This document shows, one piece after another, positions 1,423-7,186 of a stretch of DNA of 7,467 nucleotides. Source of the DNA: an uncultured Treponema sp. (GTDB lineage Bacteria; Spirochaetota; Spirochaetia; Treponematales; Treponemataceae). The notes beneath the pieces are model-generated. The model did not search any database, was not told where the DNA came from, and saw nothing but the letters and a program-made list of their open reading frames with translations. The translations under genes were made by a program, and so were the position numbers. The DNA lies in contig CAMNHD010000068.1 of the NCBI GenBank assembly GCA_946538875.1, forward strand, positions 1-7,467. Reading direction: 5' to 3'. Positions within the stretch are counted from its first letter, which is position 1. Each line of letters starts with the position of its first letter.

Positions 1423-2124
1423 ATGGTTACAGTAAACACCAACACATCGCAATCTTTCTGCATGTACTTAAAGAAATACTGTCTCAACAATAATGCAAAC
1501 GAAAAATTTATCTGGTGTTTTCGTGGGCACAAAAGCATAGACTTTGAATACGTCCCGTCAATATTACGTAAACAAAATGAGTATCTTCTCAAACATGAAG
1601 ATATAATCAAAAAAGAGACTATTAGCCGATATCCTGATAAGTTCAATTCCTTTGAAAAAATCACGCCTGAAGATATTGCCCTTATGCAACATTATGGACT
1701 TCCTACAAGATTCCTTGACATTACATTTAATCCATTTGTTGCGCTTTTCTTTGCATCAGAGTCAGTAAACAAATCAGAAAAAATCAGCTTAACAGGTGAA
1801 GTTGCTGTATTGAAAATCCCAAAGGATATCGTTGTTTATTCAAGTGAGTACTCAAGCAACAAAAACAAACTATGTCTTGTAAAAACTGCTCTTGACAATC
1901 CACGGATAAAAAGTCAAAACGGAGCCTTTTTAACATTTGGAGATACCGGCGAAAACAATCAAATCCCAGAAGATTGGTTCGTCCTGAAAATACGGATTCA
2001 GAATTCGAAAAAGAAAGCCCTCAGGGATGAGCTTGCAATAATGAACATCACAGAAAGCACACTTTTCCCAGAACTTGAAAATTTTCAGTCTGAAATAAAA
2101 CGTAAATATGGAAAGGATAAATAA
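1423..2124 (+). CDS. FRG-domain protein
   Basis: This 233-residue, probably cytosolic protein has the hallmarks of the FRG domain. They are the namesake F-R-G (IWCFRGH, F33-R34-G35), the central MQHYGLPTRFLDIT followed by NPFVALFFA (about 88-111), a PRIKSQNGAFLTFG segment, and the C-terminal I..ITESTLFPELENF tail. FRG proteins are widespread in phages, prophages and accessory islands; their activity is not established. I chose ATG 1423 because AGGA (1415-1418) lies four bases upstream. A TTG at 1408 would add five residues but has no ribosome binding site. The next gene starts two bases after its stop. The gene is much richer in A+T than thrS, which fits acquisition from elsewhere. Being an FRG protein is nearly certain; a defence or toxin role is inference. 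Confidence 0.85.
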   Translation: MVTVNTNTSQSFCMYLKKYCLNNNANEKFIWCFRGHKSIDFEYVPSILRKQNEYLLKHEDIIKKETISRYPDKFNSFEKITPEDIALMQHYGLPTRFLDITFNPFVALFFASESVNKSEKISLTGEVAVLKIPKDIVVYSSEYSSNKNKLCLVKTALDNPRIKSQNGAFLTFGDTGENNQIPEDWFVLKIRIQNSKKKALRDELAIMNITESTLFPELENFQSEIKRKYGKDK

Positions 2125-2126
2125 AA

Positions 2127-3710
2127 ATGTCTACACTTACATGTAAATGGTGTGGTAGGGAATTTGAAAAAGGTCATGGATTTGGCTTTGTGGAATGGTA
2201 TTGTTCCCAAAAATGTTTCGAAGAAGCTAAACAAAACGAAGAGAACAAGAAGCTTCGCGAACAAGAAGAAGCCATAAGACACCAAGAAATGCTTGATGCA
2301 CAGGCTCGCTCTCTTGGATACAGAAACCATGCCCATTATGTAGCTGCCCAAAAGCAGGCAGTAATAGATGAAGTAGATGAAGTTGCAAATGATATAGTTG
2401 CACGTGGAAATGCAATTTCAAACGAATATGATGAAATCACGAAACATAAAGGACACATGACAATAAAAGATCTTGCACTAACTTTTAAAAGTGTTTCAGG
2501 TAACTTTCCAGGAAAAGACTTTTGTGATAGGGATTATAATTTTGTCGGCATAGGTTCAGATGCACAAGTATATTGCGTTGAAGGCATTTCATCAGAAAAA
2601 GCTAAGAAATTGCTTGCATCTTTTAAAAATTTGGCAAGTCGATACTCCACTACACATGAAATTGAAAGGAAAAACAAATATGTAAAAGTTAGTCAGAAAG
2701 TGACTGCAACATCCTCAATTTCAATCACTTCGCGTGATGTAGCAACTTATCTTCTTTCAAAAAAAGATGGTATCGAAGATACTATTGCGCCATTATTAAA
2801 AAGAGCAGAAAAAACAAATATCAGAAATGAAGCAAAAAATTTTTTCATAATGTCATGTGTTAGCATAATTTGTTTCTTGATTAGTACCATAGTTTATAAA
2901 CCCATAAATAATGGTGGAGCAAGTTTCTGGGGATTTCTTTTTTCATTCGCCGCATTCGCAACTACAGTTTTATCCGGCGGTTACCGGAAAAATAACATTT
3001 TTTCCTTGGTAGGAACAGTGCTTTTACCCATAGTGCTTACAATTATTTATTTATTTGTTCCAGGAGAGATAAATACGCCTTCTGGATATATTGAAAGCAA
3101 AACGCTTCTACTCCAAGGGCCATTATTCATTGGAACGATTTTTTCTGGAGAAAATCCCCCATTCACGCTTTTCGTAGACGAACTGACAATATTCGCTTCC
3201 CTGCTTGCTATAATTCCTGCTGCAAAGAATTATAAAACAAAATTATGGGATTTAAATACAAATCTAAAGGAAGATGATTTAAATTACCTTTCTTTAGATA
3301 ATTTAACAGGTAAATACAGTACAATCACGTTAATGATTCCCATTTTGCTACTCTCAGTTGCTCTTGTCTTTACATTAGGTTGGGAATATATCGATACAGA
3401 TAGCTACGAAGGATTAAATATAGGAAATTTCTTTTGGGCAACAATATTTATCATTCCTTCATACCTTGCTCTTTTTTATACACCATCCAAAAGCATACGT
3501 TTTCGTCCATCATTTTTTATAATAGAAGCTGTACTTATATTCACCTTTGCCTTATGGGCTATCCTCTTTTTTGCGCAATCAACTGGTGGATTCACATTTC
3601 TTGGCATCCTATGCATAATTTTTGCTGTTGGTATGACTATAAAAACCGTTATTGAAATCAAGAAACGTATATTTCCTTCAAAAAAGAGCGTTAATTTAAG
3701 CAAACGCTAA
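2127..3710 (+). CDS. Zinc-finger, coiled-coil, multi-pass membrane protein of unknown function
   Basis: This 527-residue protein is not one I can name. Residues 6-30 form a C-x2-C...C-x3-C finger (CKWCGREF, then YCSQKCFEEA, with C6, C9, C26, C30). A charged, probably helical segment follows (31-60). Residues 61-235 are soluble, with a compact alpha/beta-looking part (FVGIGSDAQVYCVEGISSEK at 139-158). From about 239 on there are seven or eight predicted membrane helices (roughly 239-258, 265-284, 291-311, 343-365, 398-418, 434-452, 461-483, 486-508), then a basic tail IKKRIFPSKK. Thus the N-terminal half should be a cytosolic sensor or effector domain on a membrane anchor. AAAGGA (2112-2117) lies inside the FRG gene's end and the ATG is two bases after its stop, so the pair is translationally coupled. 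Base composition is very AT-rich. Confidence 0.8.
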   Translation: MSTLTCKWCGREFEKGHGFGFVEWYCSQKCFEEAKQNEENKKLREQEEAIRHQEMLDAQARSLGYRNHAHYVAAQKQAVIDEVDEVANDIVARGNAISNEYDEITKHKGHMTIKDLALTFKSVSGNFPGKDFCDRDYNFVGIGSDAQVYCVEGISSEKAKKLLASFKNLASRYSTTHEIERKNKYVKVSQKVTATSSISITSRDVATYLLSKKDGIEDTIAPLLKRAEKTNIRNEAKNFFIMSCVSIICFLISTIVYKPINNGGASFWGFLFSFAAFATTVLSGGYRKNNIFSLVGTVLLPIVLTIIYLFVPGEINTPSGYIESKTLLLQGPLFIGTIFSGENPPFTLFVDELTIFASLLAIIPAAKNYKTKLWDLNTNLKEDDLNYLSLDNLTGKYSTITLMIPILLLSVALVFTLGWEYIDTDSYEGLNIGNFFWATIFIIPSYLALFYTPSKSIRFRPSFFIIEAVLIFTFALWAILFFAQSTGGFTFLGILCIIFAVGMTIKTVIEIKKRIFPSKKSVNLSKR

Positions 3711-3735: not shown

Positions 3736-3778
3736 GGATATCAGTCGTGAAAAATTTTCTTTTTCACGATTGATATTC
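3736..3778 (+). terminator. Long hairpin closing the FRG operon
   Basis: A 19-bp stem with two G-T wobbles pairs 3736-3754 with 3760-3778 around the 5-nt loop TTTTC. It starts 25 bp after the membrane-protein stop. The inner stem is A5/T5, so U-rich RNA lies in the hairpin itself, and the following bases (CCAACATTACATTTTT) are not a classic immediate T-run. It is likely a terminator or an RNA 3'-end stabiliser, but could also be an end structure of the cassette. Confidence 0.55.
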
Positions 3779-3835: not shown

Positions 3836-3865
3836 TCAAAGGGACTGCCTGTTACCAGATGGTAA
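3836..3865 (+). pseudogene. Ten-codon 3' remnant of a second TM2-domain gene
   Basis: In the frame corresponding to the intact TM2 gene this reads SKGLPVTRW-stop, against SKGLSVSRW-stop at 776-805, at the same distance before the 150-bp repeat. Five of 30 bases differ; three changes are silent and two conservative (S/P, S/T). Homology stops abruptly upstream of 3836. This looks like the tail of a paralogous TM2 gene whose body was lost or replaced. It is short, but the coding-type substitutions and preserved position argue against chance. Confidence 0.6.
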
Positions 3866-3879
3866 GAGACAAATCCTCC

Positions 3880-4029
3880 TAGCCCCGGTTGGAGGTGGCC
3901 GCCGGAAGGCGGCGTGCAAAGCACCGGAGCGGGAGCGAAGCACCGGAAAACGGGGAACTTACCAAGAGACGTCCACACGATTGCAGCCAAAAAGTGCATG
4001 GGGAAAAAGCCGCTGGCTCCAAGAAAAAA
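3880..4029 (+). repeat. Dispersed GC-rich repeat, copy 2 (right end of the cassette)
   Basis: It is identical over all 150 bp to 820-969, although the adjoining TM2-tail sequence has diverged. That pattern indicates recent duplication or gene conversion of the repeat. It begins 14 bp after the TM2-remnant stop and ends eight bases before the proposed thrS -35 element. Confidence 0.9.
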
Positions 4030-4098: not shown

Positions 4099-5856
4099 AT
4101 GGCTGTTGATGAACACTTACAGACTGTGCGCCACAGTTGCGCTCATGTTATGGCAGAAGCTGTACTCAAGCTTTTCCCGGGTACCAAAATTGCTATTGGT
4201 CCTGCCATTGACAATGGTTTTTACTATGATTTTGAATTTCCGGCTGACCACAAACTGACTGAAGCGGACTTTCCGGAAGTTGAAAAGGAGATGCGCCGTA
4301 TTCTTGCCGGCAACCACGAATTTGTCCGCAAGGAAGTTTCCAAGGAAGAAGCCCGCACTATCTTTGCCGACCAGCCTTACAAGATTGAGCTTATCAATGA
4401 CCTGCCTGATGATGCGGTTGTCACTACATACACTCAGGATACTTTCACAGACCTTTGCCGCGGTCCTCATGTCGCAAACACTAAGGAAATCAATGCACAG
4501 TCTTTCAAACTGATGAAGACTGCCGGTGCTTACTGGCGCGGGGACTCAAGCCGCACTATGCTGAGCCGTGTCTATGCTGTCTGCTTTGCAAAGCCCAACG
4601 ACCTCAAGGACTACCTCAAGATGCTTGAGGAAGCCGACAAGCGCGACCACCGTAAGATTGGTGTCCAGATGGATCTCTTCCACCTTGACCCGGAAGACCC
4701 GGGACAGATTTTCTGGCACCCCAACGGATGGAGCATGTATGTGACTCTCCAGGATTATATGCGTAAAAAGGTGACCCGCGACGGCTATGTAGAAGTGAAC
4801 ACTCCTGCTGTCATGCCCCGCACTCTTTGGGAACGCTCAGGCCACTGGGGACACTACCAGCAGAACATGTTCGTGACAGAAAGCGAAAAGCGTGTGTTCG
4901 CAATCAAGCCGATGAACTGTCCCGGCGCACTGGAAATCTTCAAGAGCAAGATACGCTCCTACAAGGACCTGCCTCTGCGCATGGCTGAATTCGGCCACTG
5001 TGTGCGCAACGAGCCAAGCGGAACTCTGCACGGAATCATGCGTGTACGCGGTTTTGTTCAGGACGATGCCCACATTCTTTGTACCGAGGAGCAGATTGAG
5101 GCGGAAGTCACAAAGTTCTGCCATCTGCTCAAGGATGTGTACAAGGACTTTGGCTTTGACAAGAATCTTCTGGTAAAGCTTTCCACTATGCCTGAAGACC
5201 ATGTGGGTGACCTTGCCACCTGGCAGCATGCAGAAACTGCTTTGGGCAACGCTTGTAAGAGCGCCGGTCTGGAGTACGAGATTCAGCCTGGCGAAGGTGC
5301 CTTCTACGGACCTAAGCTTGAGTTCACCCTCATAGATGCCCTTGGACGCCAGTGGCAGTGCGGTACTATCCAGCTTGACTACCAGCTTCCGTCTGCTGAA
5401 CGCCTGAATGCTGAATACATCGGTGCGGACAACCAGAAGCACCACCCTGTCATGCTGCACCGTGCGGTTCTTGGCTCACTGGAACGCTTTATGGGTATTC
5501 TTATTGAAAACTATGCCGGAGCATTCCCTGCATGGCTGCACTTTGAGCAGGCTGCGGTTGTGCCGGTTGGAGAAGAATTCAATGACTATGCGCTTAAAGT
5601 GGCGGACTTCCTTGGTGCCGCAGGCATAAGGGCAAAGGCTTACACTGACAGCGACAACATGAAGGCAAAGATAAAGATGATTTCTTCCGAGCACAAGACT
5701 CCTTACATTCTTGTTGTGGGTGCAAAGGAACGCGACGAAGAGTCTGTCACCTGCCGTTTCCGCTTTAGCTCACAGATTCCGCAGAGGACGTTCAAGCTGA
5801 ACGAATTCAGGGATTATGTCCTGGACAAGGTTGAGACTCACTTCAACGGTATCTAA
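4099..5856 (+). CDS. thrS: Threonyl-tRNA synthetase (short form lacking the TGS domain)
   Basis: This class II synthetase activates threonine with ATP and charges tRNA-Thr in the cytosol. At 585 residues it starts directly in the editing domain; the 60-odd-residue TGS domain of the E. coli enzyme is absent. Editing residues are intact: H12-x3-H16 (RHSCAH) and C120 with H124 (CRGPHV). SAD-type sequence [15 protein letters not shown] follows. The catalytic core has the zinc ligands C274 (MNCPG), H325 (DDAHI) and H454 (LHRAV), motif 2 with R303 (RNEPSG), and motif 3 [11 protein letters not shown]. The anticodon-binding domain occupies about 485-585. AAGGA (4087-4091) seven bases upstream supports the ATG, and an in-frame TGA at 4078-4080 excludes a longer start. 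G+C is far higher than in the adjoining cassette genes. Confidence 0.97.
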
Positions 5857-6325: not shown

Positions 6326-7186
6326 ATGGTTATCAATCACAACATGAGTGCTATGTTTGCACAGCGTTCTGAAGGCATCACCGAAGGTAGCCTGCAGAAG
6401 AACATGGAAAAGCTCTCATCAGGTATGAAGATCAATCGTGCCGGTGACGATGCTTCAGGTCTTGCCGTTTCTGAAAAGATGCGCAGCCAGATTCGCGGTT
6501 TGAATCAGGCTTCTACAAACGCAAAGAACGGTATTTCTTTCATCCAGACAACTGAAGGCTACCTCCAGGAGACTGAAGACATCATCCAGCGCATCCGCGA
6601 GCTTGCTGTTCAGTCAAGCAACGGTATCTACACTGATGAAGACCGCATCATGATCCAGGTTGAGGTTTCTTCTTTGATTGCTGAAGTTGACCGCATCGCT
6701 TCACACGCTCAGTTCAACGGCATGAACATGCTGACTGGACGCTTTGCACGCCCAACTGGCGAGAACAGCGTTACTGCTTCTATGTGGCTGCACATTGGTG
6801 CCAACATGGACCAGAGAACACAGGTTTACATTGGTACAATGTCTGCTGCTGCTCTCGGACTCCGCAACGTTGGAAACGAAGAGATCCTTACTCTTGCTAC
6901 TCCAGACGAAGCAAACCGCGCAATCGGTACTTTGGACGAGGCTATCAAGAAGATCAACAAGCAGCGTGCTGACCTGGGTGCTTACCAGAACCGCTTGGAG
7001 AAGACTGTTGTTGGTCTCGACATCGGTGCTGAGAACCTCCAGGCTTCTGAGAGCCGCATCCGCGACACTGACATGGCAAAGGAAATGGTGGAGTTCACCA
7101 AGAACCAGGTTCTGCAGCAGGCAGGTACCGCTATGTTGGCTCAGGCAAACCAGAGCTCACAGAACGTTCTCTCTTTGATCAAATAA
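6326..7186 (+). CDS. flaB: FlaB periplasmic flagellar filament core protein (flagellin)
   Basis: This flagellin of 286 residues forms the core of the spirochaete periplasmic flagellum. It has no signal peptide, as expected for type III flagellar export. The N-terminal D0/D1 region is textbook: [14 protein letters not shown], then [20 protein letters not shown] and [18 protein letters not shown]. The middle reads [20 protein letters not shown] and [13 protein letters not shown]. The C-terminus has [19 protein letters not shown] and ends [17 protein letters not shown]. There is no large variable D2/D3 insertion, as usual for FlaB. The region around 16-28 ([13 protein letters not shown]) is less conserved. 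AGAGGAG (6312-6318), seven bases before ATG, fixes the start. Which FlaB paralogue this is cannot be told here. It is apparently monocistronic, between a sigma-28 promoter and a terminator. Confidence 0.98.

Follow-up and report, generated by a model that had tools for sequence, protein, structure and literature searches.

A gene pair that encodes an FRG-domain protein and a multi-segment membrane protein (gene 2) is located in a 7,467-nucleotide stretch of DNA from an uncultured Treponema sp. (contig CAMNHD010000068.1; hereafter the window). The FRG protein belongs to a family that recurs in mobile DNA, and gene 2 has no relative in the data searched. The pair is tentatively interpreted as a horizontally acquired two-gene accessory cassette in which the FRG protein would be a defence enzyme of the ADP-ribosyltransferase (ART) type and gene 2 would encode its local partner. 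The pair comprises the following features.

1423–2124, + strand: FRG-domain gene, 233 residues, ATG at 1423 and TAA at 2122–2124, with Pfam and PADLOC PDC-S15 matches and a structural model
2127–3710, + strand: gene 2, orphan membrane protein, 527 residues, with a zinc finger and hydrophobic segments
2112–2117, + strand: AAAGGA ribosome-binding site of gene 2, contained in the FRG gene and 9 bases upstream of ATG 2127

The first-pass annotation of this DNA had described a two-base spacing, a ribosome-binding site for the second gene embedded in the first and a shared foreign-looking composition, and all three are borne out. The FRG stop codon and the gene 2 start codon are separated by positions 2125–2126. 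The GC content is 34.9% in the FRG gene and 34.6% in gene 2, compared with 47–51% in the neighbouring genes (thrS, 51.3%; flagellin, 50.2%; TM2 gene, 47.1%). GC at the third codon position is likewise lower in the pair (FRG gene, 0.34; gene 2, 0.25) than in thrS (0.58), the flagellin gene (0.57) and the TM2 gene (0.51). The 527-codon frame of gene 2 is longer than expected by chance, as the longest open run does not exceed 157 codons in 500 mononucleotide shuffles of positions 1423–3710. Promoter-like and terminator-like counts are not above those of shuffled sequence (13 versus 10.0 and 2 versus 2.9, respectively).

The FRG protein

The FRG protein starts at a position that matches the start of its relatives P0003 and P0004 and contains the whole FRG domain (Pfam PF08867; E = 8.2e-18; 65.5 bits, above the gathering cut-off of 25). 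Both family motifs, QHYG.PTR.LD and R...Q.G.F, are present and are common to 87 aligned relatives. Moreover, 14 models of PADLOC PDC-S15 match the protein at E ≤ 0.001 (best E = 1.1e-53), as judged by the profile E-value alone; in the portion of PMC12482510 consulted, candidates of the PDC-S15 type are termed uncharacterised. The protein database contains six relatives at 52–66% identity, three of which come with longest contigs of 15.9, 19.3 and 142 kb, and the one named close relative is from a Treponema sp.

The window FRG protein differs from the family at large in its short N-terminus and in the tightly spaced membrane gene that follows it. Only 88 residues precede the QHYG motif. Among 94 phage, viral and plasmid loci, at least 200 residues precede the motif in 41, and fewer than 120 in 47, as in the window protein. 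FRG proteins of phages, including many of loci L004–L031, often carry at least 200 residues on the N-terminal side of the motif.

ART enzymes carry catalytic residues of the R-S-E or H-Y-E type at the NAD site. In the FRG protein, the candidates for such residues, picked by sequence conservation, are R34/H36, H90, R161 and Q165. The predicted model of the FRG protein is confident and appears to resemble ART-superfamily enzymes. At the sequence level, a profile of 14 FRG sequences has no match among PDB sequences at E ≤ 1, which sets the FRG family apart from the Tre toxins, Scabin, Tpt1/KptA and the cholera- and pertussis-type enzymes of the superfamily. The first-pass statement that FRG proteins have no settled activity calls for some qualification. 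No assay of FRG activity was found in the portions of the literature searched, and the available part of PMC9503650 places FRG in the ART superfamily as a possible NADase and lists Frg among the signal-generating ART domains.

The membrane protein encoded by gene 2

Gene 2 had been annotated as a zinc-finger membrane protein with a large soluble N-terminal region, and this description holds in its overall layout. A C6-x2-C9-x16-C26-x3-C30 pattern at the N-terminus is consistent with a treble-clef-like zinc finger. The best profile is L24e (Pfam with the first 60 residues, E = 3e-4, 21.4 bits, below the cut-off of 27; NCBIfam, E = 6.5e-6, 26 bits, below the cut-off of 73), and the Pfam zinc fingers NinG, VATC and zf-FCS match more weakly, also below the cut-off. 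Because the L24e matches are sub-threshold, the finger is called treble-clef-like without a family name. The hydrophobic segments number eight at a threshold of 1.2 and seven at 1.6, all between residues 239 and 509, and the region up to residue 238 contains no hydrophobic segment. A long helix is predicted at residues 19–107, in a low-confidence model that is confident only to about residue 55.

Gene 2 matches no PADLOC model, nothing in NCBIfam above the cut-off and no known ligand-binding domain above any cut-off in Pfam or NCBIfam; its best PHROGs match has an E-value of 0.0011. An assignment to a known two-gene system was rejected on the PADLOC, NCBIfam and PHROGs results. Relationships to ribosomal L24e and to 5'-3' exonucleases were also considered and rejected, as both derive from sub-threshold matches on short stretches.

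Among 5.77 billion proteins, gene 2 matches only its own cluster, which consists of one sequence noted on 4 contigs. The full-length protein has no other relative among the best 7,996 word-sharing candidates, and residues 1–240 have none at E ≤ 10 with all 1,135 candidates scored. No relative was found in plasmid and phage records, and the best tblastn match in 102 FRG loci has an E-value of 7.8. Single-protein scans of genome contigs and viral contigs also found none. These scans are insensitive, since scans of the same type with the FRG protein alone or with its close group found no relatives, whereas a broader FRG alignment recovered 122 in the viral contigs. Silence in the genome contigs is therefore weak evidence, because the same scan missed FRG relatives too. 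By simple arithmetic, several shared 5-residue words are expected at 52–66% identity, and a partner co-inherited with FRG should therefore have surfaced in the protein database. Gene 2 either evolves much faster than FRG, or belongs to a local pair, or has counterparts that lie beyond the contig ends.

FRG neighbourhoods in mobile DNA

FRG neighbourhoods were surveyed at 101 loci. Eighty are viral loci, taken from the 122 relatives that the broad alignment recovered, and 21 are phage or plasmid regions (17 of 312 plasmid records and 4 of 10 phage records). An open reading frame with the FRG motif is present in 94 of the 101 loci (73 of the 80 viral loci); L044, L049, L059, L070, L075, L076 and L081, which contain no such frame, were dropped from the neighbour count. 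Many of the 94 loci are near-copies that reduce to 76 distinct length/offset pairs.

The proposal that FRG and a zinc-finger or multi-pass protein form a recurrent module gains no support so far: in none of the 94 loci is FRG closely coupled to a gene whose product has at least four membrane segments, and no relative of gene 2 was found, in a search that did not extend to the contigs of the six nearest FRG relatives. Within these collections, the outcome is the one that the first-pass annotation had named as a refutation, a pair never conserved as neighbours outside this locus. Space for a gene of the size of gene 2 (at least 1,600 nucleotides downstream of FRG) is available in 84 loci, and fewer than 1,600 nucleotides follow FRG in 10 and precede it in 15. 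Only one locus, L077, has a same-strand neighbour with at least four segments within 300 bp (ten segments, about 300 bp away). Membrane genes are rare in the viral loci in any case, where just 30 of 945 open reading frames encode two or more segments. A strict statement that FRG has no membrane neighbour is contradicted by four small genes, namely a 223-residue one-segment gene that overlaps FRG by 4 bases (L050), a 240-residue two-segment gene 26 bases upstream (L030), and a one-segment gene that precedes FRG by 30 bases in L024 and by 46 bases in L039. As an undescribed system, the FRG–membrane pair thus rests on one locus so far. In L039, L045, L061 and L062, a gene of 360–378 residues that lacks a membrane segment follows FRG with a 4-base overlap and is a possible recurrent FRG partner.

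The first-pass view of FRG as a mobile family fares better, and a frequent association with defence genes is consistent with the PDC-S15 matches and with several neighbourhoods. Of 72,556 plasmid records, at least 312 contain FRG relatives, as do 10 of 50,697 phage records. Drt2 is located near FRG in a Rhizobium region, an Abi gene in an Enterobacter region, and restriction genes in Shewanella and Pantoea regions. Two Vibrio plasmids have toxin-antitoxin genes close to FRG, and so does Thiolapillus, where TIR and caspase-like genes lie further along. Integrases are found near FRG in some regions. Other regions have no defence-type neighbours, and all of these neighbourhoods are described case by case. 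In Peduovirus P22H1, the FRG gene is positioned between a replication gene and the genome end, in the cos-proximal region that PMC9122126, in the part consulted, describes as a defence hotspot. It resembles P2-hotspot defence cargo (old/tin locus) in this respect, but the P22H1 FRG protein has 454 residues with no membrane partner read beside it, and none of the annotated proteins of the window is a phage protein. In Treponema saccharophilum plasmid pTS1, a divergent FRG gene (L091, 5653–6795) shares 8 bases with the end of a leucine-rich repeat gene, and no membrane partner is annotated alongside.

Flanking repeats and interpretation of the proposed cassette

The pair is enclosed by direct repeats and hairpins, among genes that look like those of a Treponema-type spirochaete.

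776–969, + strand: left direct repeat, 194 nucleotides; its first 30 nucleotides close the reading frame of the TM2 gene and encode SKGLSVSRW plus the stop
3836–4029, + strand: right direct repeat, 194 nucleotides; its start encodes an in-frame orphan tail, SKGLPVTRW plus the stop
1311–1400, + strand: three stacked hairpins upstream of FRG, with a 24-nucleotide perfect palindrome (1313–1336) and a 15-pair stem
3736–3778, + strand: hairpin with a 19-pair stem downstream of gene 2 (RNA fold z = −7.2), missed by the terminator scan
356–805, + strand: neighbouring gene for a zinc-ribbon and TM2 domain protein (open reading frame and Pfam)
4099–5856, + strand: neighbouring core gene thrS, threonyl-tRNA synthetase (open reading frame and Pfam)
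6326–7186: flagellin gene, a neighbour in the window

The two repeats, which the first-pass annotation had not noted, are identical at 184 of 194 positions, with all ten differences in the first 44 nucleotides and an identical stretch of the last 150. The left repeat closes an intact TM2 gene, and the right one retains only a recognisable TM2-type tail. The most economical reading is that the site formerly held another TM2 gene, followed by its own repeat, and that the FRG pair took the place of the gene body. Recombination between the repeats would excise 3,060 bp including both genes. The repeat has no match in plasmids or phages, and no exact 41-nucleotide stretch of it occurs in viral contigs. 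Neither this nor the Pfam scan, in which none of the five window proteins was of phage or plasmid type, supports a phage or plasmid origin. The upstream hairpins (RNA fold z = −6.6; DNA fold z = −5.2) may be an operator, a terminator or the edge of an element, and the hairpin after gene 2 may mark the end of the transcription unit. Rfam gives no match at the gathering score, including for the upstream hairpins.

The relation between the two genes can be read in several ways. They may be unrelated cargo that landed together, in which case FRG would be a defence candidate in its own right and gene 2 an unrelated accessory membrane protein that shares the operon. FRG genes surveyed elsewhere are mostly uncoupled from membrane genes, and gene 2 lacks relatives in the same database that contains the six close FRG relatives, three of them with a longest contig of at least 15.9 kb. 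Against this, the two-base spacing, the internal ribosome-binding site and the matching composition tie the genes together, and the strong hairpin stands after gene 2, while the two-base gap is too small to hold one between the genes. On balance, this explanation is plausible but somewhat unlikely. Less likely still, FRG would make a nucleotide signal (an ADP-ribose derivative) that switches on gene 2 as a membrane effector, through pore formation or depolarisation. Such a role would suit the layout of a soluble signal-maker beside a multi-pass protein whose N-terminal part is soluble, as well as the signal-generating class to which PMC9503650, in the part seen, assigns Frg, but it gains no support from a ligand-binding domain or from relatives of gene 2. 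A toxin-antitoxin style pair, with FRG as an autotoxic enzyme and gene 2 as its neutraliser, is the most doubtful of these. The tight operon and the plasmid FRG genes that sit among toxin-antitoxin genes are compatible with it, whereas a membrane protein of seven to eight segments would be an unusual antitoxin and many FRG genes lack such a neighbour.

The accessory-cassette reading is preferred, with restraint. The cassette would have been acquired between the duplicated TM2-gene-end repeats of a Treponema-type chromosome. FRG would be the working enzyme, and its likeliest action upon phage infection would be an attack on NAD+ or the transfer of ADP-ribose, which would halt the infection. The gene 2 protein, probably co-translated, would anchor or restrain FRG via its cytosolic zinc-finger and coiled part, and it may also sense membrane disturbance. 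The gene layout, the composition, the FRG family, the confident FRG model, the repeats and the lack of gene 2 relatives in the data searched are observed, and the horizontal origin, the enzymatic activity, the defence role and any role of gene 2 are inferred. Its family, its predicted structure and some of its neighbourhoods speak for FRG as defence cargo that encodes an ART-like enzyme. For gene 2, a role as membrane anchor or restraint is preferred, with unrelated cargo almost as likely. There is a slim chance that the pair constitutes a new kind of defence system, carried in a cassette that can be excised between direct repeats. In it, a membrane sensor, encoded separately and evolving rapidly, would control a short FRG enzyme and fill the role that the N-terminal extension plays in many phage FRG proteins. 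As a single sighting, the orphan partner carries little weight yet but may show how defence cargo gains lineage-specific membrane components, and the confident ART-like model and the short list of invariant residues make the NADase question directly testable.
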